This document shows, in pieces, positions 21,200 to 51,115 of a DNA stretch of 64,000 nucleotides; positions within the stretch are counted from its first letter, which is position 1, and each line of letters starts with the position of its first letter. The notes under the pieces are model-generated. The model made no database searches and was not told where the DNA came from. It saw only the letters and a list, made by a program, of their open reading frames with translations. Position numbers and translations under genes: made by a program. Source of the stretch: Carex sylvatica (Eukaryota; Streptophyta; Magnoliopsida; Poales; Cyperaceae); the NCBI GenBank assembly GCA_964058845.1, contig CAXKVR010000041.1, positions 1-64,000 of the forward strand. Reading direction: 5' to 3'.

Positions 21200-21411
21200 T
21201 ATATAAAGATTAAAGAGGGATATTTAATTTATTTAATTACTTTCCACTGCAAAATGTAATGATTCTGTGTAAGGCTAGAGCATATTGGGCCTTTTAATAA
21301 AGCAGTATACACAAACTTGAGTCCGAGTAATAGGCTAACAGCATCAACCTATCAAATTAAGAACTCCTGAGTTCATCCAAAAAGAAAAATAAAAGAGAAA
21401 CCAGAGCAAAG
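21200..21411 (+). promoter_or_regulatory. Upstream region of the first DUF4220 gene
   Basis: About 21225-21270 (TTAATTACTTTCCACTGCAAA) is the inverse of a segment upstream of the second, inverted DUF4220 gene (about 39382-39420) and of the orphan copy near 46310. This supports shared ancestry of the promoters. Two AGCATATTGGGC(C)TTTTAATAAAGC-like words recur at about 21150 and 21280. Confidence 0.5.
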
Positions 21412-23655
21412 ATGATTTCTTTAGAAAAATTATGGAGCAAACTTGAGATCCGGGTGCTCGTGATGAGCAGCCTCGGCCTTCAGATCTTTCTCCTTGCCTT
21501 CGCCGGCTTTCGGAAGCATGTAATTTCTACCCGGTTGGCGCGAACGACCACTAGAACGTGGCATGGTCCTCTGGCTCTTATGTTCCACTGGCTTCTCTGG
21601 TTGGCCTACCTCTTGGCTGACTATGTGGCCACGGTCGCTCTTGCCTACCTCCCAGGGAGCGAAAGAAATAAGGATACTCTTGAAATCAAGACTCACCACC
21701 TGCTCATGTTTTGGGCCCCTTTCTTCATCCTCCACCTTGGTGGGCAGGACACCATCACCGCCTTGTCCGTCGAAGATAATGAGCTGTGGGCGCGACACTT
21801 GCTAACACTCTGCTCTCAGGTCGTGCTTGCAATATACTATTATCTTTCATCCAACCTAGAAGTCGGTGCACTGCGGCTCCCTGCTGCTCTCATGTTTTCC
21901 GTTGCAATCTTCAAGTATGCCGAGAGGGTTTGGTCATTACAGCGTGCAAGCATGTCTTCCCTGCGGAGTTCCATGATCACCAAACCTGATCCTGGCCCTA
22001 ACTATGCCAAGTTCATGCAGGAGTACACATCATCTAATGAGGCTGGGCTGAAAGCCACAATCCAAGTGGAGGTCGAGAAACATAAAGGTGATCTAGAGAG
22101 CCAGCGCCAACCGAAAGAATCAGCAGTGGACGAGTCTCCCAAAGAATATGAAGTAGTTGTGTGCAAGGCGTACGAGTTCTTCCCGACATTCAAGCGACTC
22201 TTTGTGGACCTAATTCTGAGCTATAAGAATCGTGAGGACAGCCAGAAGTATTTCGAGGGCCTTATCTCCGATGATGCGTACAAGTTGATTGAAATTGAGC
22301 TCTCCTGGATGTACGAGATTCTCCATTCTAAAGGTTCTGTTATTTATGCCTTTAAGCACTATGGCTGGATTTCTCGTGGGATCACTTTGGTCATTACTAC
22401 GGCCACCCTTTGTATATTTGCGGTGGCCGACCATGCTGGGTATGGAGGGTTTGAGACAACTCTAACGTATGTGCTTCTAGGGGGTGCAGTTAGCTTGGAA
22501 ATCATTGCACTTGGTATTATGCTTCTGTCACTCTGGACCTACGCAGCAATGAGAGAGTCCAAATCTTTAGACTGTCTTTCAAAGTTCCTCTTTTCTATTC
22601 AAAAAAAATTGAGGTCTCAGACAAAGCCAAGATGGTCCGAAAAAATGGCACAGTTTAGTCTGATTACATACTCCCTAGAAGATAAGCCTTGTTGTTTGAA
22701 GTCCATAATAAAATCTGTCGGATTTAAAGAGACTTGGGATAATTACCGGTACACTGCAAATGTTATGGTTAGAGGCGGTCTAAAAGAGTTAGTATTTCGA
22801 GAGTTAAAAAACAAGATGAAAAACATAGAGGATACAGCTAGTTATAGGAGATTCACTAGCCATAGAGGCCAGTGGGCACTTCAGCGCAAGGGCTACTACC
22901 AAGAGTTCGGTTGGAGTGTGGAGGCCGAATTCGATGAGAGCATCCTCCTGTGGCACATAGCAACTGATCTATTATACCATGAAACCGAAAAGTCCAAATT
23001 CACCTTGGACAAACAGAAACAGTCGGAACAACAAGAACAGAAACATGAATCGCAGTCGGAACAACAGTCAGAACAGAAATCGGAACCACAGCCAGCCCAG
23101 CAACTGGAAGACAATCCAGAACAGCAACAGCAAAAAGAACGAGCGATAAGCCAGGACATTTCAAACTACATGTTGTTCCTGCTCATCGTGCGACCTTTTA
23201 TGATGCCTGCTGGCATTGGGCAGATTCGATTCGGTGACACCTGTGAAGAGGCAAAGAACTTCTTGCAGCAACAAGGTCATATCAGTATGATTGGTGCTGT
23301 AGGAAAGATACTAGATGTGAATACGGAGTATGACCCAGCGCTTGTTAAAGGTGATCGCAGCAAGTCAGTGTTGTTCAAAGGATGCAAGCTAGCACACGAT
23401 TTAAAGAATGAATTCACCAGTAAGGAGAACGGTATACTAGATTGGAATAAAATATGGAGATTAATCAGTGCTGTGTGGGTTGAGATGTTATGCTATGCAG
23501 CCAGCAAATGCAGCGGGCAGTACCACGCCAAGCAATTAAGCAAGGGTGGAGAGCTGCTCACGGTGATCTGGTTCCTGATGGCTCATTTGGGAATGGGAGA
23601 ACAGTACCGCATTGAGGAAGGTCATGCCCGCGCCAAGTTGATTATATCCAAGTGA
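21412..23655 (+). CDS. DUF4220/DUF594 membrane protein, paralogue 1
   Basis: A 747-residue single-exon protein of the plant DUF4220 plus DUF594 family, whose biochemical role is unknown. Hydrophobic segments lie at about residues 15-33, 52-80, 97-112 and 125-145, with a further pair at about 325-375. The DUF4220 hallmark GGQDTITALSVEDNELWARH is complete. After a Gln/Glu/Ser-rich linker (about 534-575, repeated SEQQ units) the C-terminal DUF594 part holds SNYMLFLLIVRPFMMP and a conserved GGELLTVIWFLMAHLGMGEQ motif near the end. The first ATG is chosen because the paralogue at 36796-39255 starts at the same aligned residue (MISLEKLWSKLEIRVLV versus MLSFEQIWNKLEIRVLV). The reading frame is unbroken and looks functional. 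Confidence 0.9.
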   Translation: MISLEKLWSKLEIRVLVMSSLGLQIFLLAFAGFRKHVISTRLARTTTRTWHGPLALMFHWLLWLAYLLADYVATVALAYLPGSERNKDTLEIKTHHLLMFWAPFFILHLGGQDTITALSVEDNELWARHLLTLCSQVVLAIYYYLSSNLEVGALRLPAALMFSVAIFKYAERVWSLQRASMSSLRSSMITKPDPGPNYAKFMQEYTSSNEAGLKATIQVEVEKHKGDLESQRQPKESAVDESPKEYEVVVCKAYEFFPTFKRLFVDLILSYKNREDSQKYFEGLISDDAYKLIEIELSWMYEILHSKGSVIYAFKHYGWISRGITLVITTATLCIFAVADHAGYGGFETTLTYVLLGGAVSLEIIALGIMLLSLWTYAAMRESKSLDCLSKFLFSIQKKLRSQTKPRWSEKMAQFSLITYSLEDKPCCLKSIIKSVGFKETWDNYRYTANVMVRGGLKELVFRELKNKMKNIEDTASYRRFTSHRGQWALQRKGYYQEFGWSVEAEFDESILLWHIATDLLYHETEKSKFTLDKQKQSEQQEQKHESQSEQQSEQKSEPQPAQQLEDNPEQQQQKERAISQDISNYMLFLLIVRPFMMPAGIGQIRFGDTCEEAKNFLQQQGHISMIGAVGKILDVNTEYDPALVKGDRSKSVLFKGCKLAHDLKNEFTSKENGILDWNKIWRLISAVWVEMLCYAASKCSGQYHAKQLSKGGELLTVIWFLMAHLGMGEQYRIEEGHARAKLIISK

Positions 23656-24680
23656 CGCAATTTGTTTCAACAATCTTCATGTTTCCATTAATTTTCATCC
23701 CCTTTAGTAATGTTCATTGTAAACATATATATAATGTACCATGATTTTCATTATTAACAGCAACCTTTTTTTTTTCGTCCTTTTTGTAAAATTATTTATG
23801 TAAAGTGTGCGTGGATGAGTTTATAATTATATATTACAGTGTGTTTGTGTGATATATATAAAGTTTTGCAAAGTGTATATGAAATGTCACTGGATGCTCA
23901 ACACCAGAGTCCATTAATAGACTTGAATGAAATTATTAAATTCAAGCCTCAATGGGATCAGGGAACTTGCATGGGAGGCTTTGTTGTGTCGGTGATTTGT
24001 CACAGATTGTTCATCATCGCAATGCGAAACCTTTTTCTTTCCAAAACGACCCTACATAAAGCACCGAAGCACAAAGAAAGACGAAAGCAGAATTTAATAA
24101 TGTACTCAATTAATTGATTCTCCCCTGCATTAATTCCTCCTCTTTATTGCGTCCGCATCACAATCCCATAAAACCATGAGCGATATCTCATCTAAAAAAT
24201 GTGGCATTTAAAACGTTGTGATATCTCAATTACTCCTAATATTAAATTTGATTTAAAATGTGATATTTCATCTAAAAAAATATTTTGTACGTATAATATT
24301 TTCTGAAGTTTGAGTGATCGGGTGAGAATTTGTGGGGCTATAAACTTCTTTTCGACTTATATATTTTTCGTCAATTTAATTTATCACAATTTTTTTATTA
24401 TAATAAAAGGAAGAGATATCCATTTCATTTGCATGAAATCAGAAGTTAACTTACAACCAACAAAATCATTAGATCACTTAACTTTTATCATAATTTTAGC
24501 AAGATGAGTTTGGGTATGTGACTCTTTAAGTTGTGCACGGCCAACTATTAGATATTTTCATTTATAGAAGATACTTTGCGAGTTTTCCTGAACTTGGGGT
24601 AAATGTTGATTTCCTATTCTATGGGAAAAGTGTGATAGAAAACAGATTTAACAAAGTAGGAGACTATTACAAGATTAAGG
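23656..24680. other. 3' flank of DUF4220 gene 1, no further gene
   Basis: AT-rich. Two words of the GATATCTCATCTAAAAAA type (about 24180 and 24260) suggest a small repeat. The frames at 23839-24117 and 24310-24507 carry no recognisable domain. Confidence 0.5.
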
Positions 24681-24689
24681 GATCCAGAA

Positions 24690-25240
24690 AACTCTAGCTA
24701 TCTTTGTCATCTCCTTCCTTCCATTTCGTGCCGCAAGCCTCCTTAGCTCCGTCCATCTCCTTCCTCCCATCTCTTCGCCAACAAGCCTCCTCAGCTCCGT
24801 CCTCGCCTCCCGCTCCCTCCAAGGGAGAGCGGGGGATCCTCACCGATAACTCTCTCCTCTTCCTCCTTTTCTTCTCTGTCTTCTTCATTCTCTCCTCTGC
24901 CCTCTTCCACTCTCATCCACCCCACTTCCTCTTCAAAAAATTCTAGCTGCCAACAAGTGTTACTCGTTCCTACCCCCTACCCCAGCACCTATCCATCAAG
25001 AGAAGAGAAAATTGACAATAATAGTCTTAGTCGTCATCTTTCTTGTCTATCGGTACCTTCTTTTCCTTCACCATTATTGAGAGAATTAAGGACAATTGGC
25101 GACAATAACCATAATCGTCGGCTCTCATCTCTCTTTGCACTTCCACCACCGCTGCACCCTGGCTTCTCCACCCGCAACCCAAATAGGAAAAAAGAAGAAA
25201 ACAAATGTCTCCTTTCCTTTGGTCGTTAGTCAGTCAAAAC
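24690..25240. other. Pyrimidine-rich segment of unknown origin
   Basis: More GC-rich than its surroundings and strongly CT-biased (TCCTTCCTTCC, CTCCTCTTCC). It supports open frames of 80-90 codons, but they are Ser/Pro/Leu-rich low complexity without a domain. It could be an old 5' leader or gene fragment; no assignment is made. Confidence 0.35.
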
Positions 25241-26184
25241 TGAAGATTATTGGTGTTTTCCACTAAATGATATGGTTTGTTTCTTTTGTTGTTTTAGTTG
25301 GTTGTGTTGTTAGATGTTGATGTTTAGATATTGATGTTTTTTAGATGTTGATGTAGTTGAATGATGTTTTGAATGTAGAACATTGAATGTATTTTATGTT
25401 TTAAATAATAAAATTTATACTTGATAGCCACTCTTAAAGTTAAAAAAAAAAAAAAAACATATTTAACAAAAATATTGTGATACAAATTTTTTAGTGGTTG
25501 AGAATTGAAATTTGTTTTAGTGGCAAAATGCAATGTCTCCCATACAGGACTCAAAATTCGGTAGAAAATTCTTTTAAGGAGAATTTTAGAAGGCCAGACT
25601 TTCATTTTTTTATTTTTAAATAGAACTTTTTTGATAGTTGGAGAGAGAAAGAGCTGGTGGAATAATTGAGGATGCTGTCCATAAGGCCTTGTTTGGTAGG
25701 GCTGGCAAAGTTGTTGTGGGTTGAAGTTAAGGAAGAATTACTTGCTTACCTCCAAGTTAAGATGACTTTAAGTTATTCTTGTCTGGTTGAGATTTAAAAG
25801 TTAAGTCATGGCTTAAATTATTTTTATTTAGTTAGAGCTTGTTACTTAAGTCATGTTTTAAAATAATTGTTGAATTGTATATTGTTTTATTTTTAAGTGT
25901 GGGGTGTTTAAAAAATATATTGTTGTATACAATATGATAATTTGATTAATACAGTGTATTTTTATAACCAGCAAAAATTTCTTATAATTTGGTCATTTTT
26001 TTGTCTTACACGTTTGATAACTATTAGTATTTTTTTAAGTTACAAACTAATTTATAATTAAAAAATTATAGATGTTATAGTTTTGCCATAATATTACCAT
26101 TACTACATTCTTTGGATTAGTTGAATGTACATAAATAAAATTGATGCTTAAAGGACAAAAATTTAAACGTAAGTAGTATACTAA
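25241..26184. other. AT-rich DNA, no gene seen
   Basis: Contains a short tandem of TTGATGTTTAGATATTGATG-like words (about 25310-25360) and a poly(A) tract at 25443-25457. No other signal. Confidence 0.5.
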
Positions 26185-26214
26185 CTAGTCAAATGGCCGT
26201 GCGTTTGCAACGGG
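26185..26214 (-). mobile_element. Helitron-like 3' terminus 1
   Basis: Read on the minus strand, a hairpin CCGTTGCAAACGCACGG (six pairs with one bulged T, loop AAAC) is followed after eight bases by CTAG and then a T. This is the standard Helitron 3' end: a hairpin 5-12 bases before CTRR, inserted 5' of a host T. The element would extend to the right, over the gene fragments at 27353-29668. The 5' TC end was not found. Confidence 0.6.
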
Positions 26215-27352
26215 ATTGAAATATTATTTTGATTACTTTTTTTAAATGTGATTAATTTTTAATTTATTTCTTCATTATGTGTTCGTCAATAATAAGAGCA
26301 AACGATAACCTTAGAACTTAATACTATATTATTTGTGGAGATAATTAATTGTAAATACATTTCATGCTGAACCTTGCGAAATACACCTGTTCATCACATC
26401 TATGCACTATATAAAAGCTTCATATTGGACATGCATAAATTTCACATGTTACTGATCCCATACCTATAAAGAACATTTAGCATGATCCCGTCAATTAATT
26501 GTGATGAAAATCATGAGTAATTCACAGTTGTGCATGCACAGTCATATTTCTCAATGGTCAATGTGAGTTTTCCAGTAATAATAAGTTATTCCATAGCACC
26601 GAATCCTGGATGGCATGCCATTTTGGCTTTATATCGCACCACATTTAATGAGTAATAATAGCAGATTGATGGATTATGGAGTCACAAGAATCTGCCAAAT
26701 TAACTACTTCAATTGTATCAGGAATAGAACTTAATTAATTGGTTTCACAAGTAGGTATTTATCAGTGGGCCGGGTTCAGGTTTTGGTTTACCAATGGTAA
26801 GTGTATGTTCTCTGGTCTCGTTCAGTTATTTGATACTGGTAGATTCCGGTACCATTATGAACCAACTTGTTTCTATACTTGTGCATTTAACTATAATTGA
26901 CCATTAGTCCTCGAGTATCTTATATTTTAACTATGATATAGACTCTTCAATAGAAATATGATGCACCAGTTGAATATAAAATGTATCAAATACCAACCAA
27001 TTCAATACTGATACAGGAACACTATACTTAGTATGTACTGATCAGTATACAGTACACAACTTCATTTTTTTTTTAAACCAATAAAGAAACTAATTTATTT
27101 TCACTGATCACTATACAGTACACAACTTCTCCTTGTTAAACAAACTCATGATCTCCTTATGATGCATATGAAAAGTAATGCGAAGATCAAAAGAAACAAT
27201 TTATTTTTATTTAATTTTTGAGAATATATGAACCAAAATCTCTGTTAGTGACCATGACAAGTAAAGGAGAATAAAAATGAAATGACAAAATAATATACAA
27301 TTAATGAATAAGTGAAAATATTATATAATCATGAAAAACAAGATTTCGGCAA

Positions 27353-27514
27353 TTAAGCACCATTGCGAAAATCATGAAAAATGCGGTTATGGTGATCCTG
27401 CAGCATCTTGGTGTGAATGTAGAAACACGAGTAGCCGAGCTCAGCAATTTTCTTAGCCAGTAGCTCCACACGGTTCACCAAGTTGCAAAATATTATCGAT
27501 TGATTTATTTGAAG
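27353..27514 (-). pseudogene. Captured exon of a DHH1/DDX6-type DEAD-box RNA helicase
   Basis: The minus strand encodes about 53 residues matching the helicase C-terminal domain of plant RH6/RH8/RH12, the cytoplasmic mRNA-decapping helicases. It includes [35 protein letters not shown] and IFHDFRNGA. It starts exactly after a splice acceptor (GGTGGCAG at 27515-27522) and runs into a TAA stop at 27353-27355, where the family protein would continue. The preceding exon of the same gene is at 28148-28270. The N-terminal motor domain is absent, so this is a fragment. Confidence 0.85.
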
Positions 27515-27762
27515 CTGCCACCAAAACAAAAGGCTTTATATATTACACTCTAGATCGATCGATGGAATAAACCTTCGGTAAAAGTTTTGAAGAATACCCA
27601 ATATTTCAGTAAAGAGTCCATGTAATATTCACAGCATATCCGAATCAACCCTTAGATAATTCTTAGAAAAAACTATACCATATAATATTAAACAAAAACA
27701 ATAGCCGAAGGCAAGACCTCAAGACTCCACCAAAACAAGTATAATTTCTTGAGTGGGATTAC

Positions 27763-28101
27763 GGTACTATGCATAGTGCATATTGGTCCATACTATAGTT
27801 CAATATTTTTATTTTCAAAATTCAAATCATCGATCTGAACCATTCAACATGATCTCGATATGAAAATGTAGTTTTAGACCAGGTTTCACATTATTTATAA
27901 TTTGTTTATTATTTCTTAGATGAGTGGAAAATCACTTGATAGTGATTTTATCTAAAAAAACAATAAATTTTTTTATAAATAATGTAAAATTTAATCTTGA
28001 AGTATATTTTTATATGAAAATCATGTTTAACGGTCCAGATATACTATTTGGACTTTAAAAAATAAAAATATTGATCCATAGTACGGACCAATCTGCGATA
28101 T
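27763..28101. mobile_element. Hairpin MITE M5 in the helicase-fragment intron
   Basis: Left GGTACTATGCATAGTGCATA and right TATGCATAGCACC are near-inverse, followed inward by TTGGTCCATACTAT and its inverse and by a shared ATTTTATCTAAAAAA region. It lies between the two helicase exons. Partial relatives are at 8500-8650 and 28500-28815. Confidence 0.7.
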
Positions 28102-28147
28102 GCATAGCACCAGACCTCATATTGTAAAAGATCAAAAGAGAAGTTAC

Positions 28148-28270
28148 CTTGGAAAACACTGTGTTGAGGCAGTGTTCTTTCTGTTTCCCTTCAACATATG
28201 CATAATACTGGGTGATACCCTTGAGAGTAAATCATCCTTGAGATTTATCACGTAGACTCGTAGTAAGTAA
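28148..28270 (-). pseudogene. Captured preceding exon of the same RNA helicase
   Basis: The minus strand reads [10 protein letters not shown] in one frame, then [18 protein letters not shown] and LNTVFSK in another, so a small indel near 28225 breaks the frame. In DHH1/DDX6 helicases this stretch directly precedes the NQSIIFCN exon, matching the order seen here. Boundaries agree with a TTACAG acceptor (28271-28276) and an AAG/GTAAC donor (28143-28150). Exon order, splice sites and phase are therefore kept, while the frame is lost. Confidence 0.8.
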
Positions 28271-28499
28271 CTGTAACCGATTATATAATTCTCTATTTGA
28301 TGCACCATAAAGTAAAATGAAGATAACAACAAATGAGAACACAAAAATCCAACATCCTTTTATAGGAGTAAGGAAGTAAGGATAAGATTGGATATCTCTA
28401 ATTAATGTTACAACCAAATTTAATTAATTTTTGAAAAAGGAAAGAAAGTTCCTCTCAAGCTGCCAACTAACATTGTAAATAGTGAAGGCAACTTCTACA

Positions 28500-28815
28500 G
28501 GGCCATTTTATAAACCTCTGCCATGATTCCATATGAAAATGTACTATCAGATTAAATTTTATAAATTTTACAACTTTTTTTTTTTTTGATAGATAGAAAA
28601 GATCTTGATCTAAAAAATTGTAGAACATTCAAAAGTACTGATTTTCTGCTTGTCTAAAAAAATAGTATAAAAATTCTCAAAAATATAAAATATATTCTGC
28701 AAGTACATTTTTATTTTCATATGGAGATCAAATTGAACTATTTAGATCGACTATTAAAATTTGAAAATAAAAATATTGATCCATAGTATGGACCACTCTG
28801 TGTTATGCATAGTAA
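28500..28815. mobile_element. Decayed hairpin MITE M6
   Basis: The right arm (ATTGATCCATAGTATGGACC, then GTTATGCATAGTA) matches M5. The left arm is largely eroded. Inner words AAATGTACTATCAG and GCAAGTACATTTTTATT still pair partly. Confidence 0.5.
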
Positions 28816-28862
28816 TACACAATTGTGTTGTGGAGCAAAATACTTTCAATTATATTTGTTGA

Positions 28863-28943
28863 ATTATTCTTTGCGTACCATGCGGCGTAGTGATTTATAC
28901 CAATAAAATCCAATGATCCCTTAACCAATACTGCCTCATTAGT
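28863..28943 (-). pseudogene. Captured piece of a GH1 beta-glucosidase exon
   Basis: The minus strand encodes 27 residues including LVKGSLDFIGINHYAAWYAK. This is the conserved KGS-DF-G-NHY block of plant glycoside hydrolase family 1 enzymes, which hydrolyse beta-glucosides. No catalytic glutamate motif is present and no other GH1 exon was recognised nearby. It shares the minus orientation of the neighbouring fragments. Confidence 0.7.
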
Positions 28944-29089
28944 TGAGACTCACAAACACCATCCCTGTTATTAAAAAATGAAAAAAAAAACTAAATTCAG
29001 TTTAAACATCAAACCAAAATCCATTACAGCTTATAAGAAATGAACAACTAATAGGCAATTATTTTTTTTATTGGCAACGTACGTGAGAA

Positions 29090-29160
29090 ATGATCAGCAA
29101 CTAAGAGGGACCTGCAGCTCAGGTGCTTTATAAGGTTGGCAATACCACCTTAGCACCCAG
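29090..29160 (-). pseudogene. Possible captured exon, unassigned
   Basis: The minus strand has a more GC-rich, coding-like stretch (ANLIKHLSCRSLLVAD in one frame) between the GH1 and RSZ pieces. I do not recognise the source gene. It is listed only because it sits in a row of minus-strand fragments. Confidence 0.25.
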
Positions 29161-29467
29161 CTATGTTCTTTAACCTAAAATCCTATAAATCCTATAAGAA
29201 CATATTTTATTTTTCAGAATGAAGAACATTACAGAACATTATAAATTTGTTTATTTTTCTTTCTTTTTTGCAAATTTTCTTTCCTCAGATTATAGTAATG
29301 TGTATTTTCTTTTTTAATTATAGCAAGGGAACAAACATCCTCTCTAGCTTAGTTCAAAGGAAATTAAGCAAGAGTATTTTTTTTAGTGGCTAATGGATGT
29401 CCAATTCAGACTAATTAAATAGTAAAAAGGATGTAAACGGTAAATAAAAGATTTACAACTAATGATG

Positions 29468-29668
29468 TTATAAATGTACATGCTTGCGACCGTAAGTAGG
29501 GCTAGGTCTGTTGTAGTGGGGACTGGGGCTTCGGCGACGGCCATGACCAGACTCCACACGCAGTCTACATTCCCTTGCAAAGTGACCTGGTTCCCCACAC
29601 TCAAAGCACCTCTTGTTCCCTGGCCCACCATGTAAATAGTCATGCCCGCCACGGCCATAGGCTTTCAA
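29468..29668 (-). pseudogene. Captured fragment of an RSZ-type SR splicing factor
   Basis: The minus strand encodes 66 residues with a CCHC zinc knuckle, CFECGEPGHFAREC, then GHGRRRSPSPHYNRPSP and TYGRK. This matches the zinc-knuckle to RS-domain junction of plant RSZ21/RSZ22 proteins, which bind pre-mRNA. The N-terminal RRM domain and most of the RS domain are missing. The coding-upstream side is cut at 29669 by the CACTA-like sequence. It is an isolated fragment. Confidence 0.75.
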
Positions 29669-30140
29669 CCACTAGTACAAAAAACCTCTTCATTGACTGT
29701 TCTAATACCCCTACACCGACTGTTATAGCAGCGTCAGTAAAGCCAGCGACAGTGAAGATTACCTTTTATTGACGCTTTAAAAACAGTAAGTGTTGAACAC
29801 CAACACTGACTGTTTTTACGTCAGTGTTGAACGCTAACACTGACTCTCTAAAAACAATCAGTGTTGGTGTTCAACACTGACTGTTTTTAGAGCGTCAGTG
29901 TTGATCACAACACTGACTGTTTTTAAAGCGTAAGTGTTGAATGCCAACACTGATGCTTCAAAAACAGTCAGTGTTGAGCCCAACCATGACGCTTAAAAAA
30001 CAGTCAGTGTTGGTGTTCAACACTGACGCTTTAAAAATAATCGGTGTTAATGTTAAAAATGTCAGTGTAGATATTAAAAACAATCGGTGTTGACATAAAA
30101 ATTTTGGCATGGTTCCGCTTGTATCGAGGCTAGCCTCCAT
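29669..30140. mobile_element. CACTA-like terminus with subterminal repeats
   Basis: Begins CCACTAGTACAAAAAACC, which resembles a CACTA-superfamily end, and continues with about ten direct and inverted copies of a word like AACACTGACTGTTTTTA/TCAGTGTTG. Such subterminal arrays are typical of CACTA elements, where the transposase binds. A matching array is at 33132-33250. No 3' terminus with inverse CACTA ends was identified with certainty. Confidence 0.6.
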
Positions 30141-30304
30141 ATTTTGTTAGCCATATAACTATTCGACATTCATTGACATTAAATAGAATATCATGCAAAT
30201 AATGTAGACAACATACATAAAAGGCAACACAATTTAACAACATAACATATTCATTCACAAAAAGTCACACTATAGCAAAATTTACATAACCCATAAAAAC
30301 AAAA

Positions 30305-30333
30305 CTAGTATCGTACCCGTGCGTTGCAACGGG
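30305..30333 (-). mobile_element. Helitron-like 3' terminus 2
   Basis: On the minus strand the hairpin CCCGTTGCAACGCACGGG (seven pairs with one bulged T) is followed after seven bases by CTAG and a host T. It is nearly the same as terminus 1 at 26185. The element would extend rightward over the xylose isomerase, eL37 and KIN17 fragments. The 5' end was not found. Confidence 0.65.
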
Positions 30334-30516
30334 GACATATTGTAAGAGAATAAAGCTTATAACATGAAGTAAGCACACAGCTCAAAGACTATATATACCG
30401 TTTTATCACAGTTAGTAAGAACAAGAAAAAACATGCATCGGTACCATTAAGTGTGCACAAAATAAATGCCAAACTGGAAATGTGAATCTTGTACAAGGAC
30501 ACAAGAAGAAAATATC

Positions 30517-30567
30517 CTGAAGTTCCTTTGCTAGCTCAACTACTTGATCCAAGTTCGCATTTGTTTC
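30517..30567 (-). pseudogene. Captured xylose isomerase exon (downstream piece)
   Basis: The minus strand encodes ETNANLDQVVELAKELQ, which in xylose isomerase follows the RDIAPDG segment closely. It is preceded by a CTGGCAG acceptor (30568-30574). Together with 30674-30769 it keeps the order of the parent gene. Xylose isomerase interconverts xylose and xylulose. Confidence 0.8.
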
Positions 30568-30673
30568 CTGCCAGTGTAATCAAATATTAAATGAGAGCCA
30601 ACTAAATATATATATATGGGTTTCAGTACTGCATATTGTAAAAGATTAAAAAGCTATATAGACAAGCATATAC

Positions 30674-30769
30674 CGAAAGGGTATTGATTAGCATCAGGAG
30701 CAATGTCTCTATCAGAGAAGCACCACTTATTGACCCCAAGCTTATTTATAAACTCAAGTTGTGCTCTCA
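30674..30769 (-). pseudogene. Captured xylose isomerase exon (upstream piece)
   Basis: The minus strand encodes RAQLEFINKLGVNKWCFS then DRDIAPDANQYPF. The KLGV-KWCF-DRDIAPD block is characteristic of xylose isomerase active-site strands. Boundaries fit a GTGCAG acceptor (30770-30775) and a G/GTATATG donor (30668-30674). The last residues differ from the family, and the rest of the enzyme is missing. Confidence 0.83.
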
Positions 30770-31226
30770 CTGCACCATTTCCACAAATCAAAACAAAAAT
30801 AAATTTAGTATCACACTTTGGTGTCGGATGAGTAGGTGATTTTCAAAGTATCCACAAAAAGTGCACTAATATTATAAAGTTTCTGTCACAAAACACACTA
30901 CAATACAAGCAACAGAATTGGTATCATCCTCCCATGGCCATGACTTAGTAGGCGCACCAAAATGCTACACTAAACCTAAACCAGAATGCTACACTAAACA
31001 AAAAGTATCACACCAGAATGCTAAACCAGAATGCTACACTAACCAGAATGTATCACACCAGTGCCTCGAAAAGTGTACCAGAATGCTACACTAAACCTAA
31101 ACCAGTCCTGCCATAATAACATCAACAATATGATAAAAACAACATGAGAAGCTCAAATTGAAGAAAAGAATTTTCTATTGTGCATATGCAGATATATAGC
31201 ATTGTAAAGAGTACCCTCATTTGTAC

Positions 31227-31332
31227 GGCATCTGACGCTATTTCTACGGCATCTGACGCACGCAACTGCCCATGGAGCAGCAGGTTCGGCATCCAGTTGT
31301 CTTCCTCCTAATTGCCCTCACACTCCAGTTAT
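31227..31332 (-). pseudogene. Captured exon piece of ribosomal protein eL37
   Basis: The minus strand starts after a GTGCAG acceptor (31333-31338) and encodes NWSVRAIRRKTTG, the invariant block of large-subunit protein eL37 (RPL37). Past this point the sequence diverges and contains a TAG. Two copies of GGCATCTGACGC (about 31228 and 31249) suggest a local rearrangement. It is a fragment only. Confidence 0.7.
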
Positions 31333-31639
31333 CTGCACAATAAAATCAAATTAGCTTCAAATAAATGCAAAAACCTTAGAAGAAGGCAAATCAGACAAGC
31401 GAAATAAAAAAAAACCCTTAAAAATGATCTAGAGGTCATTTTTTTTAATTCGATGTGCACATTTTTCAATACAAAATGGTAATGAAATAAAAAAATCGCT
31501 TAAAAATGATATAGAGGTCATCTTTATGTTTGTTGTACTGATTGACTGGCAAGTGTTTCAATATACTCAAATATGTCACAAAATATCACAGTATCAACTG
31601 AATATAAAACAATATCAGATAGTTTGAATTATTGGTATA

Positions 31640-31710
31640 AATGCATACTTTTGTAGCTCCTGAAGCAATATAAGTTTGTTCGTCTCTTCATTAATTTTCT
31701 GAGTTTATTA
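31640..31710 (-). pseudogene. Possible captured exon, unassigned
   Basis: The minus strand shows CTCAG followed by an open, charged stretch (KINEETNKLILLQELQK) that could be a coiled-coil exon. I do not recognise the parent gene. Support is composition and its position between other fragments. Confidence 0.25.
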
Positions 31711-31989
31711 AGTCACAAACATTAGTAAATAAGCAGGTGGAATTTATATCGTTAAGATAATTAAATATTCTTAATTAATAAGCATTGCTTTTGAAAGCTC
31801 AAGCCAACATTGTTTAGTTAATCAAAAATCGACATCATGAATTATATATATACATGCAGTCTCAGCAATCAAAAGTATCCAGATTAAGATATCAATAAGA
31901 AAATGAAAAATATTGTACCTCTTTATTTACCTCCAGGCTGAGCAGTACATATAAAATATTGCAGCAAAAAGAATGACAATGACAACAAG

Positions 31990-32125
31990 CTAATTCATCT
32001 TGATCAATTCTTCATTTGTGTTTTGTTTCGAGCATTTTGATTCCTCCGACGTACTTGTCTATTACCATTTTCACCACCCATTTCTCCTTGTAGTATCCCT
32101 TCTCAGCCAGTGACTTGATCATCAC
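31990..32125 (-). pseudogene. Captured KIN17 exon with an in-frame stop
   Basis: The minus strand follows a TTAACAG acceptor (32126-32132) and encodes VMIKSLAEKGYYKEK, then VIDKYV, then MLETKHK, then TGA (32012-32014). After the stop the same frame continues RIDQDEL, as in the KIN17 C-terminal KOW region, so the stop is a nonsense change inside the original coding sequence. KIN17 is a nuclear DNA- and RNA-binding protein. Only this part of the gene is present. Confidence 0.78.
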
Positions 32126-32257
32126 CTGTTAATTATTTTTTACAAAATAGTGTCAGTAGCATTAAAATTTTCATAATCAATATTAATATTTTTAATTATA
32201 TATCAGTGAAATTGAAAATCAAATTCATAAAATATACAGTAAGAAAGAATTTATCAC

Positions 32258-32290
32258 CTTGACTATTATTCCTTCACAGAGCCAGTAATC
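32258..32290 (-). pseudogene. Captured small KIN17 exon
   Basis: A 33-base exon on the minus strand encodes DYWLCEGIIVK, which in plant KIN17 directly precedes the VMIKSLAEKGYY segment of the next exon. Acceptor AATAGAAAG (32291-32299) and donor AAG/GTGATAA (32252-32260) are canonical. Phase with the exon at 32125 is preserved. Confidence 0.78.
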
Positions 32291-32639
32291 CTTTCTATTT
32301 CAATTGAATTTGTACATATGTAAATCTAATTTATACAACAAATAATATGAAAAAAAATTAAAATAAAATATTTTCAAACATTTTACAGCTTTCATGGACA
32401 AATCATACTTATAATTGTTGATTTTATAGAATTTAATTATTATTTACTTTTTCAATATGTGTAAATATTTGTGGACCATTCATTTTCACACGAGCAATCG
32501 ACGGTCGATTTTCAATGAAATAATTCCAAAGTTATTTTTAAATGATCAATGGAAAATATTAAACATAATCAAAATAAAATTTTTGAAGTTCAATCATGTC
32601 TAAGCTTCAATACAATGTCTCTTATGTAAAATTGAGAAA

Positions 32640-32790
32640 TTTGGTTACCTCAGGCGAAACAAATTTGTTGGGAGGTGTCTCTATGCAAATGTGATATAGA
32701 GAGTTACTTGTTCTCTGGATAATAGGTGATTTTTCTAAAATCGAAACCCATCCCCTCTCTGGATACTTGGTGATTTGTTCTCTGAAAACG
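32640..32790 (-). pseudogene. Possible captured exon, unassigned
   Basis: Minus-strand stretch bounded by CAG (near 32779) and GAG/GTAACC (near 32648), with two ATCCAGAGA words and an open piece (ETPPNKFVSPE). The source was not recognised. Confidence 0.25.
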
Positions 32791-33131
32791 TATTAATTTT
32801 TTCATCACATTGTTAGCAAAATATTATACATTAACATATAATTTTCTTAAATACAATTAGATTTAAATAAATGAATTTTGAATGTCTAAATTAATTCTAT
32901 ATAAAGGAAAAAAATAAAAAAAAAGATAAGAAAAAAAACCAATTTTTTTTTTGTTTTTGAGATTTTTTTATATACCTTATCGGATTAGAATTTTATTCAT
33001 TCTGAAATATAAAATATTTTTTTAATATAATTTCAATAGAAAAATTCTATTTTATTTTTAAAAATATCATGATTCGTAAATATATCATAACTTGCAAACA
33101 TCCCTCTAAATTTAATTGCTGTTTTCTCATT

Positions 33132-33250
33132 TTTGGTTGCCTACACTGACTGTTTTTTAAAAAACAGTCAGTGTTGGTTGCCTACACCAACTATTTTTGA
33201 AAAACAGTCAGTGTTGATTGCCTACACCGACTGTGTTTTTTTTAAACTTG
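33132..33250. repeat. Second CACTA-like subterminal array
   Basis: Three units of GTTGGTTGCCTACACCGACT type with AAAAACAGTCAGTGTTGG, matching the array at 29690-30120. The predicted frame across it simply translates the repeat. It suggests the right side of the element that starts at 29669. Confidence 0.55.
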
Positions 33251-33458
33251 TCTCATGCTATATTTTTTGTATGAATCTATCAGTGTTGATCACCGTAGTT
33301 TGTAACAAAACTTTACCAAGTGAAGCTAGTGACAAATACATTGCCTTCTGTGTTCGTATTTTCGAAATCCGAAAAAAAAATTCTTGATATTAAACTAGTT
33401 CATTAACTTAACTTCAACTTTACTAGAAAAAAAGACCAACTTGTAATGATCTAGGTAG

Positions 33459-33560
33459 CACTACTATAAAAAACCCGACTATACACAGCTAAAAATTGAG
33501 GTTGTACACGGTTTTGCATCCATATCCATGATCGTTGTATATGAAAGCATCGATAAATTT
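33459..33560. mobile_element. Another CACTA-like end
   Basis: CACTACTATAAAAAACCCGA followed by ACACAGCTAAAAATTGAGGT is typical of a plant CACTA terminus. No partner end with the same sequence was found in the window. Confidence 0.4.
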
Positions 33561-33804
33561 TACATTGTGTATATCAGTTTACCTACATACATTTTACAAA
33601 ATACATGCGAATTATCGGGAGAAATCCAAACAAATAAAACAGAAACCAGCAAATATAATTTGACAACAAGATAGGCAATAAGATTTGGGAAGTGCCTTCT
33701 TTTGTAATCATTTTGGTCAAGAGATACGAGTCAGTACATTTTCGGAGTGCATTTCCACTCTTTTTATTTCAAAAAAGCGGATTTGCATTTTCTTTTATTT
33801 TGGA

Positions 33805-34012
33805 AAACCAAGTCAGAGGAATTCACATCCCCTCAGTTACTGGACTGAGTACAATTGAATCAGATGGTTCAAAATTGTTCTTTTTAATTTGGCACGAATC
33901 TCAAAGAACAACTATTACTGTCCCCCGCGCCATCCCAAGGAAGCACCGACTGAGAGTAAATCCGAGCCATCCGTTTCAATTGTGTTGAGTCAGATACATG
34001 GGAGGATACGGA
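33805..34012. mobile_element. MITE of about 200 bp with GAATTC..CCCCTCAG ends, copy 1
   Basis: Left GGAATTCACATCCCCTCAGT and ACTGAGTACAATTGAATCAG are mirrored by AATTGTGTTGAGTCAGATAC and GGAGGATACGGATCC on the right. A second copy in opposite orientation lies at 50905-51115. Confidence 0.55.
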
Positions 34013-34429
34013 TCCAAGTCAGAGTCGGTCACGTGCTGCCTCTAATTGGCTCAGATCTAGGTCCAACGCCAGGGATCATGATTTTACTAATTAATTTGTT
34101 ATGGACTGTCGATCTAGGTCCAACGGCTGAGGTTAAATAAATGGTTTTTTTTTTAATGTCAAATTATCGACACGTTCTCCACTTTCAATCTCTTGTTTGA
34201 TCCTCTAAACTCATTTTCTTTTCTTTTTTAACTTATTTTTCTATATCCAATTTACTTTTTGAACTTGTAATTGTGCTAGCGACCTTTTTGAAGGTGGTAA
34301 TTATCGAAAGTTGCTAGTTGCGAGATTTGACTGGAGGATTATTATCACGTCCATTTTTTTATTTAGGTAGCAAATTTTTTTTTTTTTTTGAAATAAATAG
34401 TTAAGAATATGATTGAGGCTTTTCTATGT

Positions 34430-34660
34430 TAATATGCATATTACGGATCAACCTATTATATATGTGTATGTATATATTTATTTTCAAAGTTTAAATAGTT
34501 GATATGAACGGTTAAATATGATCTCTATGGAAAAATATACATGTTGGCCAAATTTTATATTTAAAAAAAAAATCTTTTAGGTGGATAGGAAATCACTCAC
34601 TTTGAATCAAATGATATTCTATCTATCTTAATAAATAGTAAAAAAATTATAGGAGCCTGA
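34430..34660. mobile_element. Decayed hairpin MITE of the M family
   Basis: Words TTTAAATAGTTGATATGAACGG, then ATGATCTCTATGG, then TTAATAAATAGTAAAAAAATT match inner-arm positions of M1-M3. Ends are eroded. Confidence 0.4.
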
Positions 34661-34759
34661 ACAAAATTCCCGAGCGTGTCCCTCAAGTAGTTTAACAGAA
34701 TTTTTTTTTAATATTATCTAACTTTCATTTTCAGAGTTAATATCCAAACATTTAAAGCT

Positions 34760-35985
34760 TTATTTATAACATTTTACAATGCTACTCGCAAGCATTTAAA
34801 GCTCTGTCTGCAAGCATTAAAATTCTAAATCTGTATAGTTTTAACTCCTAACTACTTTCAATTTCAAGCCAAAAATGGAAAGACCTTTCACCCACTTTTT
34901 TTAATTTTTTCTTTGATCATTCTGATTCATTTTCTCGACGATTCGTGATGAATTTTGGGAATCTAAAAATATGAACATTTTTTTATCCGATTTTCTCTTT
35001 CAAATGATATCCATGAAGAATAACTTTCAAGTTATATTTGTGTCGTAATTTTTTTTTTACCACTTTAAATCTTTGTGACTTTTAATTTTTCTTTTTTAAT
35101 TTTGCTTCAAATAATTTAAACCTCTGTTTACAAGTATATAAATATCATATACAAGCATATAAACCTCATTAATAACACTTTAAATCTTGAGAATAAAATA
35201 TATAAACCTCAAGTACAAAGAATTAAAACCTCAACAATAACATTTGAAAGCATATAAACCTCAACAATAACATTTGAAAGCATATAAACCTCAACAATAA
35301 CACTGCATTTACAAAGCTCATTTACAAAGCATATAAACCTCATGTACAAAGAATTAAAACCTCAACAATAACATTTCAAAGTATATAAACCTCAACAATA
35401 ACACTGCATTTACAAAGCTCATTTACAGAGCATATAAACCTCATGTACAAAGAATTAAAATCTCAACAATAATATTTCAAAGCATATAAATCTCAACAAT
35501 AACACTGCAGTGTAAATGCATATAAACCTCATGTACAAAGAATTAAAATCTCAACAATAACATTTCAAAGCATATAAACCTTAACAATAACACTGCATTT
35601 ACAAAGCATATAAACCTCATGTGTAAAGCCTTGAAAATTTTAATAGTTGTAGACTGAGATTTAAAAAGTTGAAAATTTAAAGTGCTCATGAGTTTCACTT
35701 TAAAAAAACAAATGACTTCAAAATTACTCAAAAATATTTCTTCATAGATCTTATTTGAGTGATAAAATCGAATAGAAAATATTCGTATTTTTAGATTCGT
35801 AAAATTCATCACGGATCATCGAAAAAATAAATTATAATAATCAGAGAAAAAAATAAAAAAGTGTGGGTGAAAGAAATCTTTTTATTTTTGGCTTGAAGAC
35901 AAAAATAATTAGGAGTTAAAACTATGTAGATTTAGAATTTTAATACTTTCAGACAGAGGTTTACATACTTGCGAGTAGCATTGGG
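34760..35985. repeat. Fold-back element with minisatellite core
   Basis: About 34760-35060 is the inverse of about 35690-35985. Shared words include TGCTACTCGCAAG/CTTGCGAGTAGCA, AGTTTTAACTCCTAA/TTAGGAGTTAAAACT and CATCACGGATC/GATTCGTGATG. Between the arms lies an array of about 35100-35620 built from CATATAAACCTCAACAATAA and CATTTACAAAGCTC units, in higher-order repeats of roughly 110 bp. Non-coding. Confidence 0.8.
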
Positions 35986-36155
35986 TTGGTCCAGTTGGGG
36001 TCAGTTGTCTTCAATAATTAATTGTGTTGGGTCGAGTTAGGTCAGTTGGAGACTTGGAGTCAATAATTAATTGTGTTGGGTCCAGTTAGGGTCAGATGTT
36101 TCAATAATTAATTGTGTTGGGTCCAGTTAGGTTTTCAATTATTGAATTTCCAATT
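35986..36155. repeat. Tandem repeat of about 50 bp
   Basis: Three to four units of TCAATAATTAATTGTGTTGG followed by GTCCAGTTAGGGTCAG. It directly abuts the right arm of the fold-back element. Confidence 0.8.
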
Positions 36156-36795
36156 AATTTCCGACTAAAAAATAATTTTAAATTGAATCATAAACCACAG
36201 AATTTGAATACATTGTCGGAAGTTCGTCTGAAGTTCGCCAAACCACTTCTAAATGTTCGTTGGACCCCGGCTTAAGTTGGCAACACACTGCCGAATGTTT
36301 GCCAAAAGCTCCGCCACAGGTTGTATGCAATAAGAAGGTTGGTTGCTGATGTATAACTAATGAAAAAATATTATTAGTCAAGTTATTGGCTAATTATGAG
36401 TTGTTATATATATACCGTTAACTGGATTTTTTTATGGTACCTTGAAAAAGAATCGAAATAGACTTATTTATTTAAAGGGAGGGCGTGAAAGGAGGTTATT
36501 GAAATAAATTTTTTTTATCTCGTAGTCGTACACTAGTAAAATGTTCAATGTTGTCAAAGCAATTGAGGAATTAGAATACCTAAACAGGCTAACACGAAAG
36601 CAAATATTGATGACACAAGTAAACAGTTAATAGTGGATAATAAGCGTGAATGAAATTAACATGACTTCAATATTTGTCTAAAATTAATACTTGTCTAAAC
36701 AAGGGGAGCAAATTTGAAAGATAACTAATTAAAAGGGATAAAAAAAAGAAAACATGAAGATAGATGGAACTAAAATGACTAATGATTACACAACA
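36156..36795. other. 3' flank of DUF4220 gene 2, no further gene
   Basis: AT-rich, with a more mixed stretch at 36200-36320 (GGAAGTTCGTCTGAAGTTCG). The small minus-strand frame there has no domain. It includes the 3' untranslated end of the minus-strand gene. Confidence 0.45.
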
Positions 36796-39255
36796 TCACT
36801 TTGATACAATTAACTTGGCACGGGCATGACCTTCTTCAATTCGGTACTGTTCTCCCATGCCCAAGTGAGCCATCAAGAACCAGATCACGGTGAGAAGCTC
36901 ACCTCCTTTACTTAACTGCTTTGCATGGAACTGCCCGCTGCATTTGCTGGCAGCATAGCACAATATCTCTACCCACACAACACTGATTAATCTCCACATT
37001 TTATCCCAATCTGGTTCACCGTTAGTAGTTTCGAATTCTTTCTTCAATTGGTGTGCAAGCATGCAACCTTTGAACAACACTGACTTGCTGCGATCGCCTT
37101 TAATAAGTGATGGATCATAGTCTGTATTCACTTCTAGTAACCTTTTTACAGCATTACTCTTCTTTGTAATATCCTTATCGATGTTACTCTTCTCAGGATT
37201 ATCCTTCCCGACTTTACCGTCCTCCACATCACCCTCCTTGACATTATCGTTCTCGTTATTAATTTTCTTTAAATTACGCTTCTCAATTTCACCCAGTGGC
37301 TGTAAGAAGTTCGCCGCCTCTGCACAGGTGTCACCAAATCGAATCTGCCCAATTCCAGCAGGCATCATAAAAGGTCGCACAATGAGGAGGAACAACATGT
37401 AGTTTGAAATGTCTTGACTTATCTCTCGTTTTGTTTTTTTTCCCTGTTCCGGCTGCTGTTCTGGATTGTGTCCCAGCTTTTGATCCGGCTGTGGTTCCGA
37501 TTTCTTTTCTGGCTGTTGTTCCGACTGCGATTCATCTTTCTGTTCTTGCTGTTGTTCCGACTGCAATCCCGGTTTCTGTTGTTCCGACTGCAATTCTGGT
37601 TTCTGCGATTCCAGTTGCTGTTGCTCCGACTGCAGTTCTGGTTTCTGCGATTCATGGAATAATAGATCAGTTGCTATGTGCCACAGGAGGATGCTCTCAT
37701 CGAATTCAGCCTCCACACTCCAACCGAACTCCTGGTAGTAACCCTTGCGTTGGAGTGCCCACTGGCCTCTATGGTCAGTGAATCTCCTATAGCTAGCTGT
37801 ATCGTCTATGTTATTCATCTTCTTTTTCAACTCTTCAAATACTAATTTCTTGAGATTACGATCAACAGTTACACATGTTGTGTACCGATATTGATCCCAA
37901 GTGCTCTTGAGACCAAGGCATTCCATTATGGACTTCCACCAACAAGGTTTATCTTCAAGGGAGTATGTAATCAGACTATACTGTGCCATTTTATCAGACC
38001 ACCTTGCCTTTTTCTCAGGCCTAAGCCATCTTTCCTGAAAAGAAAAGAGGCGACCTGAAAGGCCATTAAGAAAGTTTGATTTTCTCATTGCAGCATATGT
38101 CCAGAATGATAGAAGCATAAAAACAAGTGCAATGATTTCCAAACCAACTGCACCTCCTAGCAGCACATACGTTAGAAATGTCTCGAACCGTCCATACCCA
38201 TTATGGTCGGATAACACAAATAAACAAAGGGCGATAATAATGATGATCAGTGTGATCACACGAGAAATCCAGCCATAGTGCTTATAGGAGTAAATAATAG
38301 AACCTTTTGAATGGAGAATCTCGTACATCCAAGAGAGCTCAATTTCAATCAACTTGTAGGCATTATTGGTGTTAAGCTTCACAAAGTACTTCTGGCTGTC
38401 CTCCCGATTCTTGTAGCTCAGAATTAGGTCCACAAAGAGGCGTTTGAACGTTTGGAAGAACTCGTATGCCTTGCACACAACAGTTGCATAATCGGGTTCC
38501 TTCCATGGATCTGCTTCTGCTACTCTATTTTGATGGCTCTCGAGATCACCTTTTTCTTTATAACCTTTTTCTTTATGCTTCTCGTTCTCCACTTTGATTT
38601 CGGCTTTAAGCCCAGCAGCATTAGATGATGTGTACTCTTGCATGAACTTGGCATAGTTAGGGCCTGGATCAGGTTTGGTGATCATGGAACTCCGCAAGGC
38701 TGACATGCTTGCACGCTGCAAAGACACAACCCTCTCGCTATACTTGAAGATTGCCACAGCAAACATGAGAGCGGCAGGTGGCCACAGCCCGCGGACACGT
38801 AGGTTTGATGAAAAATAATTGTACATTGCAAGTGCAACCTGGGATATTAGTATTAGCAAGTGCCGCGCCCACAACTCATTATCTTCGACGGACAAGGCAG
38901 TGATGGTGTCCTGCCCACCAAGGTGTAGGATGAAGAAAGGGGCCCAGAACACGAGCAGGTATTTAGTGTTAGTCTTGTTGTCTTGAGCAGCCCCTCTAAT
39001 TATTTCGCTCCCGCGGAGGTATGCAAGAGCAACTGTGGCCACGTAATCAGCCAAGAGGTATGCTAACCAGAGAAGCAAGTGGAACACAAAAGCCAGAGGT
39101 CCTCGCAACGTAAAGCCGGTCGTTTCAGCCCACCGGACCGAAATAACATGCTTCCGTAAGCCGGCGAAGGCAAGGAGAAATATCTGTAGGAAGAGGCTGC
39201 TAATCACGAGCACCCTGATCTCAAGTTTGTTCCATATTTGTTCGAAGGATAACAT
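36796..39255 (-). CDS. DUF4220/DUF594 membrane protein, paralogue 2
   Basis: An 819-residue single-exon protein, a close paralogue of the product of 21412-23655 in inverted orientation. It has the same layout: N-terminal membrane helices, the GGQDTITALSVEDNELWARH motif, two more helices at about 340-390, a Gln/Glu-rich linker, SNYMLFLLIVRPFMMP, and the C-terminal DUF594 part with GGELLTVIWFLMAHLGMGEQ. Two regions are longer than in paralogue 1. The linker (about residues 530-605) holds extra ESQKPELQSEQQ-type repeats, and a Lys/Asn/Asp-rich insert (about 655-708, units like KSNIDKDITKKSNAVK) separates the conserved blocks. The start aligns with paralogue 1. The frame is intact. Function of the family is unknown; I do not infer one. 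Confidence 0.9.
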   Translation of the reverse strand: MLSFEQIWNKLEIRVLVISSLFLQIFLLAFAGLRKHVISVRWAETTGFTLRGPLAFVFHLLLWLAYLLADYVATVALAYLRGSEIIRGAAQDNKTNTKYLLVFWAPFFILHLGGQDTITALSVEDNELWARHLLILISQVALAMYNYFSSNLRVRGLWPPAALMFAVAIFKYSERVVSLQRASMSALRSSMITKPDPGPNYAKFMQEYTSSNAAGLKAEIKVENEKHKEKGYKEKGDLESHQNRVAEADPWKEPDYATVVCKAYEFFQTFKRLFVDLILSYKNREDSQKYFVKLNTNNAYKLIEIELSWMYEILHSKGSIIYSYKHYGWISRVITLIIIIIALCLFVLSDHNGYGRFETFLTYVLLGGAVGLEIIALVFMLLSFWTYAAMRKSNFLNGLSGRLFSFQERWLRPEKKARWSDKMAQYSLITYSLEDKPCWWKSIMECLGLKSTWDQYRYTTCVTVDRNLKKLVFEELKKKMNNIDDTASYRRFTDHRGQWALQRKGYYQEFGWSVEAEFDESILLWHIATDLLFHESQKPELQSEQQQLESQKPELQSEQQKPGLQSEQQQEQKDESQSEQQPEKKSEPQPDQKLGHNPEQQPEQGKKTKREISQDISNYMLFLLIVRPFMMPAGIGQIRFGDTCAEAANFLQPLGEIEKRNLKKINNENDNVKEGDVEDGKVGKDNPEKSNIDKDITKKSNAVKRLLEVNTDYDPSLIKGDRSKSVLFKGCMLAHQLKKEFETTNGEPDWDKMWRLISVVWVEILCYAASKCSGQFHAKQLSKGGELLTVIWFLMAHLGMGEQYRIEEGHARAKLIVSK

Positions 39256-39615
39256 AATAGTTTCTCTTTTCTCTCTTTTTTTTCTTCTTCTTCTTCTGTT
39301 TGGATGAACTTAGTTCTTACTTAGATAGGAGGAAGCTGTTTAGCAGTTTAACGTTCCTATTTCGATTATCCATATAACCTTTACATTTTGCAGTAGAAAA
39401 TAATTAAATAAGATATTCCTAAGACCCTATCTAGTCTTACACACAAAATAATATTCCTTCTTTTATGGGTGCCACGTGAAAAACTTAAATCCGCACATGG
39501 AAGGAATTTGTTGTTAAAACGAGAGCTCGCAGGGGGGCCCACATTCATTTAATATATTACCTTTTCTATTGTAGTTTCCGGGACACTTCCTTTTTTGTCT
39601 GTGGTGACATTATAT
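39256..39615 (-). promoter_or_regulatory. Upstream region of DUF4220 gene 2
   Basis: A purine-rich leader (AAGAAGAAGAAG on the minus strand) precedes the start codon. Further up are GCCACGTG (G-box core, about 39472) and CCACAGACAAAAAAGGAAGT. About 39320-39615 is repeated at 46241-46555, where no coding region follows. Part (39382-39420) is also shared with DUF4220 gene 1. Confidence 0.6.
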
Positions 39616-44926: not shown

Positions 44927-46240
44927 CAAATCAAAGTTTATTTGGGTTTGTAAATCTCAACAAAACTAGAGTCCTGACTAAATAATCTCCCTCTTTCATT
45001 CGATTTGACAAATAAAAAAAGGGGAGACAATCAAACAAGTATTGTTTAAAGAAAATGCTTGATTTCATTGGTAATAAATGGTAACTTAAATAAGACTTGT
45101 GTTAGCTTAAATTATTTGCATTGAATGATCAAATGTCTACATCTTGACTTACAATTAGGGATGTTGACTAGACAGCATAGCAACCACCTAAATCGTTTAT
45201 TCTATTACGATCTATATTCATATAATTAATTATATCTTTTCTATAGTCGATAGTTGGAAAATTCTTAATAACAGCCAAGTATGTCATAAGAGCTATACAA
45301 AGAAAGAATAATCTAAAAATATGTATCTTCATTCTTATAATATGCACGTAGATGTCATGATCTGTCAATGACTATGATTGAAAAAATAAATTTCAGATTT
45401 AATATCAACCCTCCAATTAAATAATTTCTCTTTTTATTAAATGTATTTTTTTAAGTATAAATTTCTAAATTTAGTTAGAAACATACTCGACACACATACT
45501 AAAAACACAATATGTTACTATAGTTGAATAGATAATAAAATTGGAGAGAAGATTAATTTTTTCATTTTCTTATTTCTCCTCTCCAGCTATCTTTCATTAT
45601 TTATTTTTTTATTTAAGAATCATGACGGATGATCAATTTATTTCTAAGAATATTAATTACTGATATCTTCTAAAAATATTTTATCAACATTTGATATCTC
45701 CAAAGTTAATACATTACTCAATTTAAGCTATAATGAATCATTTTACAATTTTACTTCTTTAATTTTGATAAGATAAAATATTCTTTTTTATTAGTATGTT
45801 TAGGTTCGTTCTTAGTTTTAGTTATTAATTATATGGAGAACATATATTGAGAATGAATTTTAGTAACATTAACTATAGATAGTGTCATAAAATAGAGCAA
45901 CTAATTTATTAATGTAAATTCACTTTTACTAAATATTTTTTGTCCTTTTGGTTTTGACTATGGGATGTATATATTTGTACAAGTCATTTGTTTTTTTTTT
46001 TTTAATCAAATATCTTTACTTGTATCGAAGTTTGAAATTAAAATTGTAAATCAAACTGTTAATTTATTTCATTTTATAATATATTTATGTTGCAACACAC
46101 AGTATGATACTAGTTTAGAATTATACTCTTCTATTCCATTTGATATCCCGTATTAATTGTGATTTCCGAGATTGAGCAATAACCTCATGAGTTATATATC
46201 TAGCAACAGGAGGACTCGATTTGAACAGACCCACGCACAC
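44927..46240. other. AT-rich DNA, no gene seen
   Basis: A purine tract AAAAAAAGGGGAGAC (about 45013-45027) could be a former polypurine tract of the decayed copia element. Otherwise nothing recognisable. Confidence 0.4.
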
Positions 46241-50904: not shown

Positions 50905-51115
50905 TCCCAAGCTCTGAGCTCGGATCCGTGTCCTCCGAGGTACCTGACTTAATACAATTGCAAACAACGGCCTAGATTTATTCTAAGCCAATACTTGCTC
51001 GGAATGACTCGGGAGGGTATCATTTGTGCTTTGCGATTGGTGTCAAGTTAAAAAACAATTTCAGACCATCCGATTCAATTGTACTCAGTCCGGTAACCTG
51101 AGGGGATTTGAATTC
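50905..51115. mobile_element. MITE of about 200 bp, copy 2
   Basis: Left GAGCTCGGATCCGTGTCCTC and right GAATTCTTTGAGCTC with TACTCAGTCCGGTAACCTGA pair imperfectly. The same sequence, inverted, is at 33805-34012. Confidence 0.55.

Follow-up and report, generated by a model that had tools for sequence, protein, structure and literature searches.

The stretch examined here is a 64,000-nucleotide window of Carex sylvatica contig CAXKVR010000041.1 (C41), and the question it raises is how exons of six unrelated genes came to stand in a row on one strand. The first-pass annotation had interpreted positions 26185 to 33450 as a single chimeric element, loaded with six genes by a Helitron, a Pack-MULE, or a CACTA transposon. 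We searched the 64 Mb assembly (950 contigs), scoring up to 40 places per search, so that the copy counts given below are lower bounds. The favored explanation, with a probability of roughly 80%, is that two non-autonomous Helitrons made separate captures and came to be nested by way of a CACTA element; a single element loaded with all six genes is improbable.

All gene pieces occupy the minus strand in the sense orientation, as the first-pass annotation had proposed. Read 5' to 3', they belong to KIN17 (two exons), eL37, xylose isomerase (two exons), an RSZ-like splicing factor, a GH1 beta-glucosidase, and a DHH1/DDX6-type helicase (two exons), spanning approximately 32301 to 27336 (Table 1). 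None of the pieces gives a whole gene. Intron sequence is kept, indicating that capture took place at the DNA level.

Protein matches were obtained for DHH1/DDX6 (E 4.8e-40 to human DDX6 versus 5.9e-9 for the best eIF4A-type chain) and KIN17, whose two exons together matched KN17_SH3 at 61.2 bits in Pfam (cut-off 27.9) and KIN17 in the PDB at E 2.8e-9; KIN17 exon ii alone gave E 0.0022. The reading frames of both genes are broken, each with a stop, and the part of KIN17 exon ii after its stop presumably also belongs to this gene. Xylose isomerase was found in the PDB at E 5.4e-7, and a Pfam search with its first exon gave no match. The GH1 piece matched rice Os03g0212800/beta-glucosidase 6 in the PDB (E 5e-8) and reached 11.9 bits in Pfam, below the 22.6-bit cut-off. 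The RSZ-like piece, the least certain of the six identities, contains a zf-CCHC knuckle (1.4e-7, Pfam) followed by an RS/SP-rich tail that we take to be RSZ-like; its PDB matches, mostly to retroviral nucleocapsid knuckles, cover the knuckle only. The eL37 piece is weak as a protein (E 0.032, without a Pfam match). At the DNA level, 103 bases covering intron and exon are 93% identical to C910:14023-14124, which holds an eL37 exon, and 71 bases are 86% identical to C116; the likeness to the parent ends within the exon. A possible seventh captured piece lies between eL37 and xylose isomerase. The only place listed as matching it is on C204, where four open frames beside the match gave no family in Pfam at E up to 1.

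The KIN17-eL37-xylose isomerase set is followed by a Helitron 3' end (Helitron B), with a palindrome, CTAG, and a T directly after it. A hairpin 11 or 12 bases upstream of the 3' end has a folding energy of -5.2 kcal/mol (z -1.17). The stretch ending at 30305 is common to at least 37 matches elsewhere in the assembly (35-70 bases each); four further ends of this family and an end on C371 likewise read CTAG and then T, and an end on C76 has changed. On the other side of the junction, 635 bases of CACTA sequence match C70:52858-53485 at 80% identity, and six such CACTA matches start exactly at 30304. Two empty paralogous sites, on C70 and C199, read GCATA directly followed by TTTTGT, where the window reads CTAG followed by TTTTGT. 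Upstream of TTTTGT, both sites have GTTGCATA directly at the position occupied in the window by the Helitron end. These two empty sites reveal that Helitron B inserted into the CACTA repeat between an A and a T. The insertion was observed at its 3' side only, the 5' side having been lost.

The far end of this CACTA segment is equally sharp. The repeat ends in CACTAGTACAAAAAACC, C70 has the same end at 29670, and the flank beyond it differs, which together identify position 29670 as a CACTA end. Beyond it follow RSZ, GH1, and DHH1, with two inserted repeats resembling miniature inverted-repeat transposable elements (MITEs), and after this set lies the 3' end of a second Helitron (Helitron A). 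Positions 26184-26522 are 80% identical to C31:376954-377331; the similarity ends just after CTAG, T comes next in both, and the flanks then differ. The hairpin of Helitron A, also 11 or 12 bases upstream of its 3' end, has an energy of -4.2 kcal/mol (z -1.16). Thus, one limit of the first-pass annotation, 26185, is a Helitron 3' end, whereas no boundary was found at the other, 33450; 33280-32296 is CACTA sequence. Separately, 29384-29195, between the RSZ and GH1 pieces, is 85% identical to C578:17911-18117.

Table 1. Features of the locus, ordered 5' to 3' along the minus strand
Feature	Position	Strand	Remarks
CACTA segment from the element's other side	32296..33280		subterminal repeats; cut at both ends
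KIN17 exon i	32258..32301	-	5' side cut by CACTA segment, junction ambiguous by a few bases
KIN17 exon ii	31988 (about)..32125	-	in-frame stop
eL37 intron end and first 40 exon bases	31293..31395	-	DNA match to C910
Possible seventh captured piece	31052..31221	-	intron-like (GT...AG); 89% to C204:266638-266809
Xylose isomerase exon 1 piece	30672..30770	-	PDB match
Xylose isomerase exon 2 piece	30516..30570	-	PDB match
Helitron B 3' end	30305..30354	-	palindrome; CTAG at 30308-30305, then T at 30304
CACTA terminal segment	29670..30304		end CACTAGTACAAAAAACC at 29670 (+ strand); subterminal repeats
RSZ-like splicing-factor exon	29480..29669	-	CCHC knuckle and RS/SP tail; begins directly at the CACTA end
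GH1 beta-glucosidase exon piece	28854..28964	-	rice GH1 match
Second MITE-like element, just after GH1 piece	28522..28814		multi-copy; listed matches at 76-80%
DHH1/DDX6 exon a	28147..28254	-	apparent frame break near start, judged from the frames
MITE-like inverted-repeat element between DHH1 exons	27752..28119		many copies in both orientations; inverted arms
DHH1/DDX6 exon b	27336 (about)..27520	-	stop near end
Helitron A 3' end	26185..26522	-	palindrome region; CTAG at 26188-26185, then T at 26184

Could one Helitron ending at 26185 have acquired the whole row step by step, with the CACTA pieces and a bypassed, older Helitron 3' end among its captures? All six gene pieces are co-oriented and lie upstream of 26185, and maize Helitrons, as described in PMC3288121, capture several fragments stepwise and may hold several terminal sequences within one element. 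In maize, however, only one 3' terminal sequence per element had an intact CTAG, whereas here both do. Furthermore, the 30305 end lies at the A-T site of a CACTA repeat with two empty counterparts, and the CACTA end at 29670 is exact; both look like real insertions, though perhaps ones made before a later capture. We consider this explanation unlikely. The single six-gene element of the first-pass annotation is likewise not supported, since a CACTA end separates the gene sets and each set is followed by a Helitron 3' end of its own.

We also considered capture of KIN17, eL37, and xylose isomerase by a Pack-CACTA element. The CACTA segment at 33280-32296 runs directly into KIN17 exon i, and at least 10 further places match most of its length at 90-94%. 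This segment and the terminal one flank the gene set with inverted subterminal repeats between them, and capture of gene fragments by CACTA elements, as by MULEs, is described in PMC1947982 and PMC13317346. Two boundaries make this explanation improbable: between xylose isomerase and the CACTA segment there is a Helitron 3' end, placed precisely at the junction defined by the empty sites, and the CACTA end leaves RSZ, GH1, and DHH1 outside. In the assembly DNA search, the KIN17 and xylose isomerase pieces were listed at no other place.

A Pack-MULE was rejected, as none of the 25 longest of the 55 inverted pairs in region 24500-36500 frames all pieces. Among these pairs, those framing only KIN17-eL37-xylose isomerase are 39-52 bases long and consist of CACTA subterminal repeats; one 97-base pair (70%) spans 27965 to 34577, with its left arm in the MITE-like repeat between the DHH1 exons. 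Transposon capture, the broader proposal of the first-pass annotation, is supported, and of the three element types proposed there the Helitron has direct evidence (two 3' ends, one of them with two empty sites). Chance matches, or remnants of ordinary duplications or retrocopies, are hardly credible: some pieces are short or weak, such as eL37 as a protein and GH1 in Pfam, and frames are broken, but E values reach 4.8e-40, intron sequence is kept, and unrelated genes adjoin one another with transposon ends at their boundaries.

With two nested Helitrons as the preferred explanation, the following order of events may be proposed. Helitron A would have carried RSZ, GH1, and DHH1, and a CACTA transposon would have landed at or within the RSZ piece. 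Helitron B, carrying KIN17, eL37, the possible seventh piece, and xylose isomerase, would then have inserted into this CACTA element. A later deletion may have removed the 5' end of Helitron B together with the CACTA interior, leaving CACTA sequence abutting the KIN17 exon. In keeping with this, C199 carries the two CACTA segments on one strand and in the window's order with 3,664 bases between them, a space that the gene pieces occupy in the window. Each gene set would thus have moved inside its own Helitron, presumably by means of a RepHel protein supplied from elsewhere. RepHel domains (PF14214) exceeded the cut-off at five places in the assembly (five of seven matches) versus none of 14 control genomes, and none of the seven matches lies on C41. 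With its 5' ends missing and its frames broken, the copy seen today appears unable to move or to encode a protein.

Several observations weigh against this history. The CACTA segments lie on both sides of KIN17-eL37-xylose isomerase, as a Pack-CACTA would give, and the second CACTA end and a target duplication are missing, no partner of the 29670 end being seen. No empty site was found for Helitron A, and approximately 0.8 kb between DHH1 and its conserved 3' stretch is not accounted for. The hairpins of the two 3' ends were matched or beaten by 25 of 200 and 27 of 200 shuffles (approximately 1 in 8). The family 5' end (TC...), derived from six of the 16 loci compared (L014-L029), was not found in the window for either Helitron; the only clear matches to it there are at 45325 (+) and 48464 (-), each with another 3' end nearby. 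Finally, the assembly searches recovered no parent of KIN17, DHH1, xylose isomerase, or RSZ.

The two matches to the family 5' sequence belong to two short members of this Helitron family, at 45326-46113 (+) and 48463-47411 (-), in each of which both ends can be recognized. The 3' end of the former is a loose match, and that of the latter has a changed CTAG. One long Helitron starting from 48464 was rejected, because the 5' end there has its own 3' end at approximately 47411.

The first-pass annotation had also suggested looking for intact parents and for further copies of the whole chain elsewhere in the genome. A parent was found for eL37, the exon on C910. For DHH1 and RSZ, the best other matches in the assembly had identities of 37% (E 0.05) and 44% (E 0.0017), respectively, and for GH1 only family members with 56-59% protein identity were found. 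KIN17, DHH1, xylose isomerase, and RSZ genes are expected in plants. As they were not found, the 64 Mb assembly seems to be partial, and therefore an absent parent or second copy says little.

The exon chain itself was found once in the assembly. A joint DNA search with the five genes other than eL37 returned five candidates, all of which were scored, and only the DHH1 tail recurred outside the window; the surroundings of eL37 were included in a separate comparison with the assembly. This tail (about 27378-27336), together with the following intron sequence, is found on C76, C667, and C371 in three copies (L089, L090, and L091) that are closely similar by eye and fused to another exon. On C76, the exon upstream of the tail had no Pfam match, and its upstream part had no PDB match. 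An end of the Helitron B type with an intact CTAG lies approximately 1.8 kb downstream of the tail on C371, and one with a changed CTAG approximately 1.7 kb downstream on C76, both on the same strand as the tail; among the matches listed, no such end lies near the tail on C667.

Comparison with known systems places the locus closest to gene-capturing Helitrons, CACTA elements, and MULEs. As in maize HelA and HelB (PMC3288121), unrelated gene fragments occur together with a 3' CTAG, a putative upstream palindrome, and insertion between A and T; TC and CTRR ends, a palindrome, and A-T insertion are described there for maize. Unlike HelA and HelB, our locus has no 5' ends, and two Helitrons seem to be joined through a CACTA element. 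As in the soybean Pack-CACTA element Tgm-Express (PMC1947982), CACTA sequences flank exons that could be spliced together; unlike there, a Helitron end forms the boundary toward xylose isomerase, and the CACTA copy appears to have received the insertion rather than to have carried the exons. The locus resembles the Pack-MULEs of PMC13317346 in being a chimera of host gene fragments, and differs from them in that none of the listed inverted repeats is a long one enclosing every piece.

Other features of the window lie outside the captured row. Upstream of it are a multi-copy repeat at 34657-35983 with inverted arms and a tandem of approximately 101 bases, and another of approximately 200 bases at 34021-33816 with a second copy near 50922-51115. 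Two long uninterrupted frames on opposite strands, at 21361-23655 (+) and 36796-39309 (-), each contain DUF4220 and DUF594. A 586-residue frame at 3467-5227 (+) carries an Na_Ca_ex domain. Retrotransposon domains at 57395-60996 (+), namely a zinc knuckle, Pol_BBD, gag_pre-integrs, rve, and RVT_2, are spread over three frames in an order that we take to be copia-like.

Together, these data provide a worked example of Helitron exon capture, in which two empty paralogous sites mark the point of insertion. They also caution that exons in a neat row may not come from a single capture element, since nested transposons that were loaded separately give the same appearance. It is conceivable, though we would give it little credence, that the nested elements are read through in a single transcript whose splicing joins exons of up to seven genes, or that they yield small RNAs dampening several housekeeping genes at once. 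In that case, independent captures would combine by nesting into multi-gene chimeras bigger than the haul of one Helitron. Exon capture by Helitrons is already well known, and this locus is a new example, with nesting, of a known form of gene shuffling.

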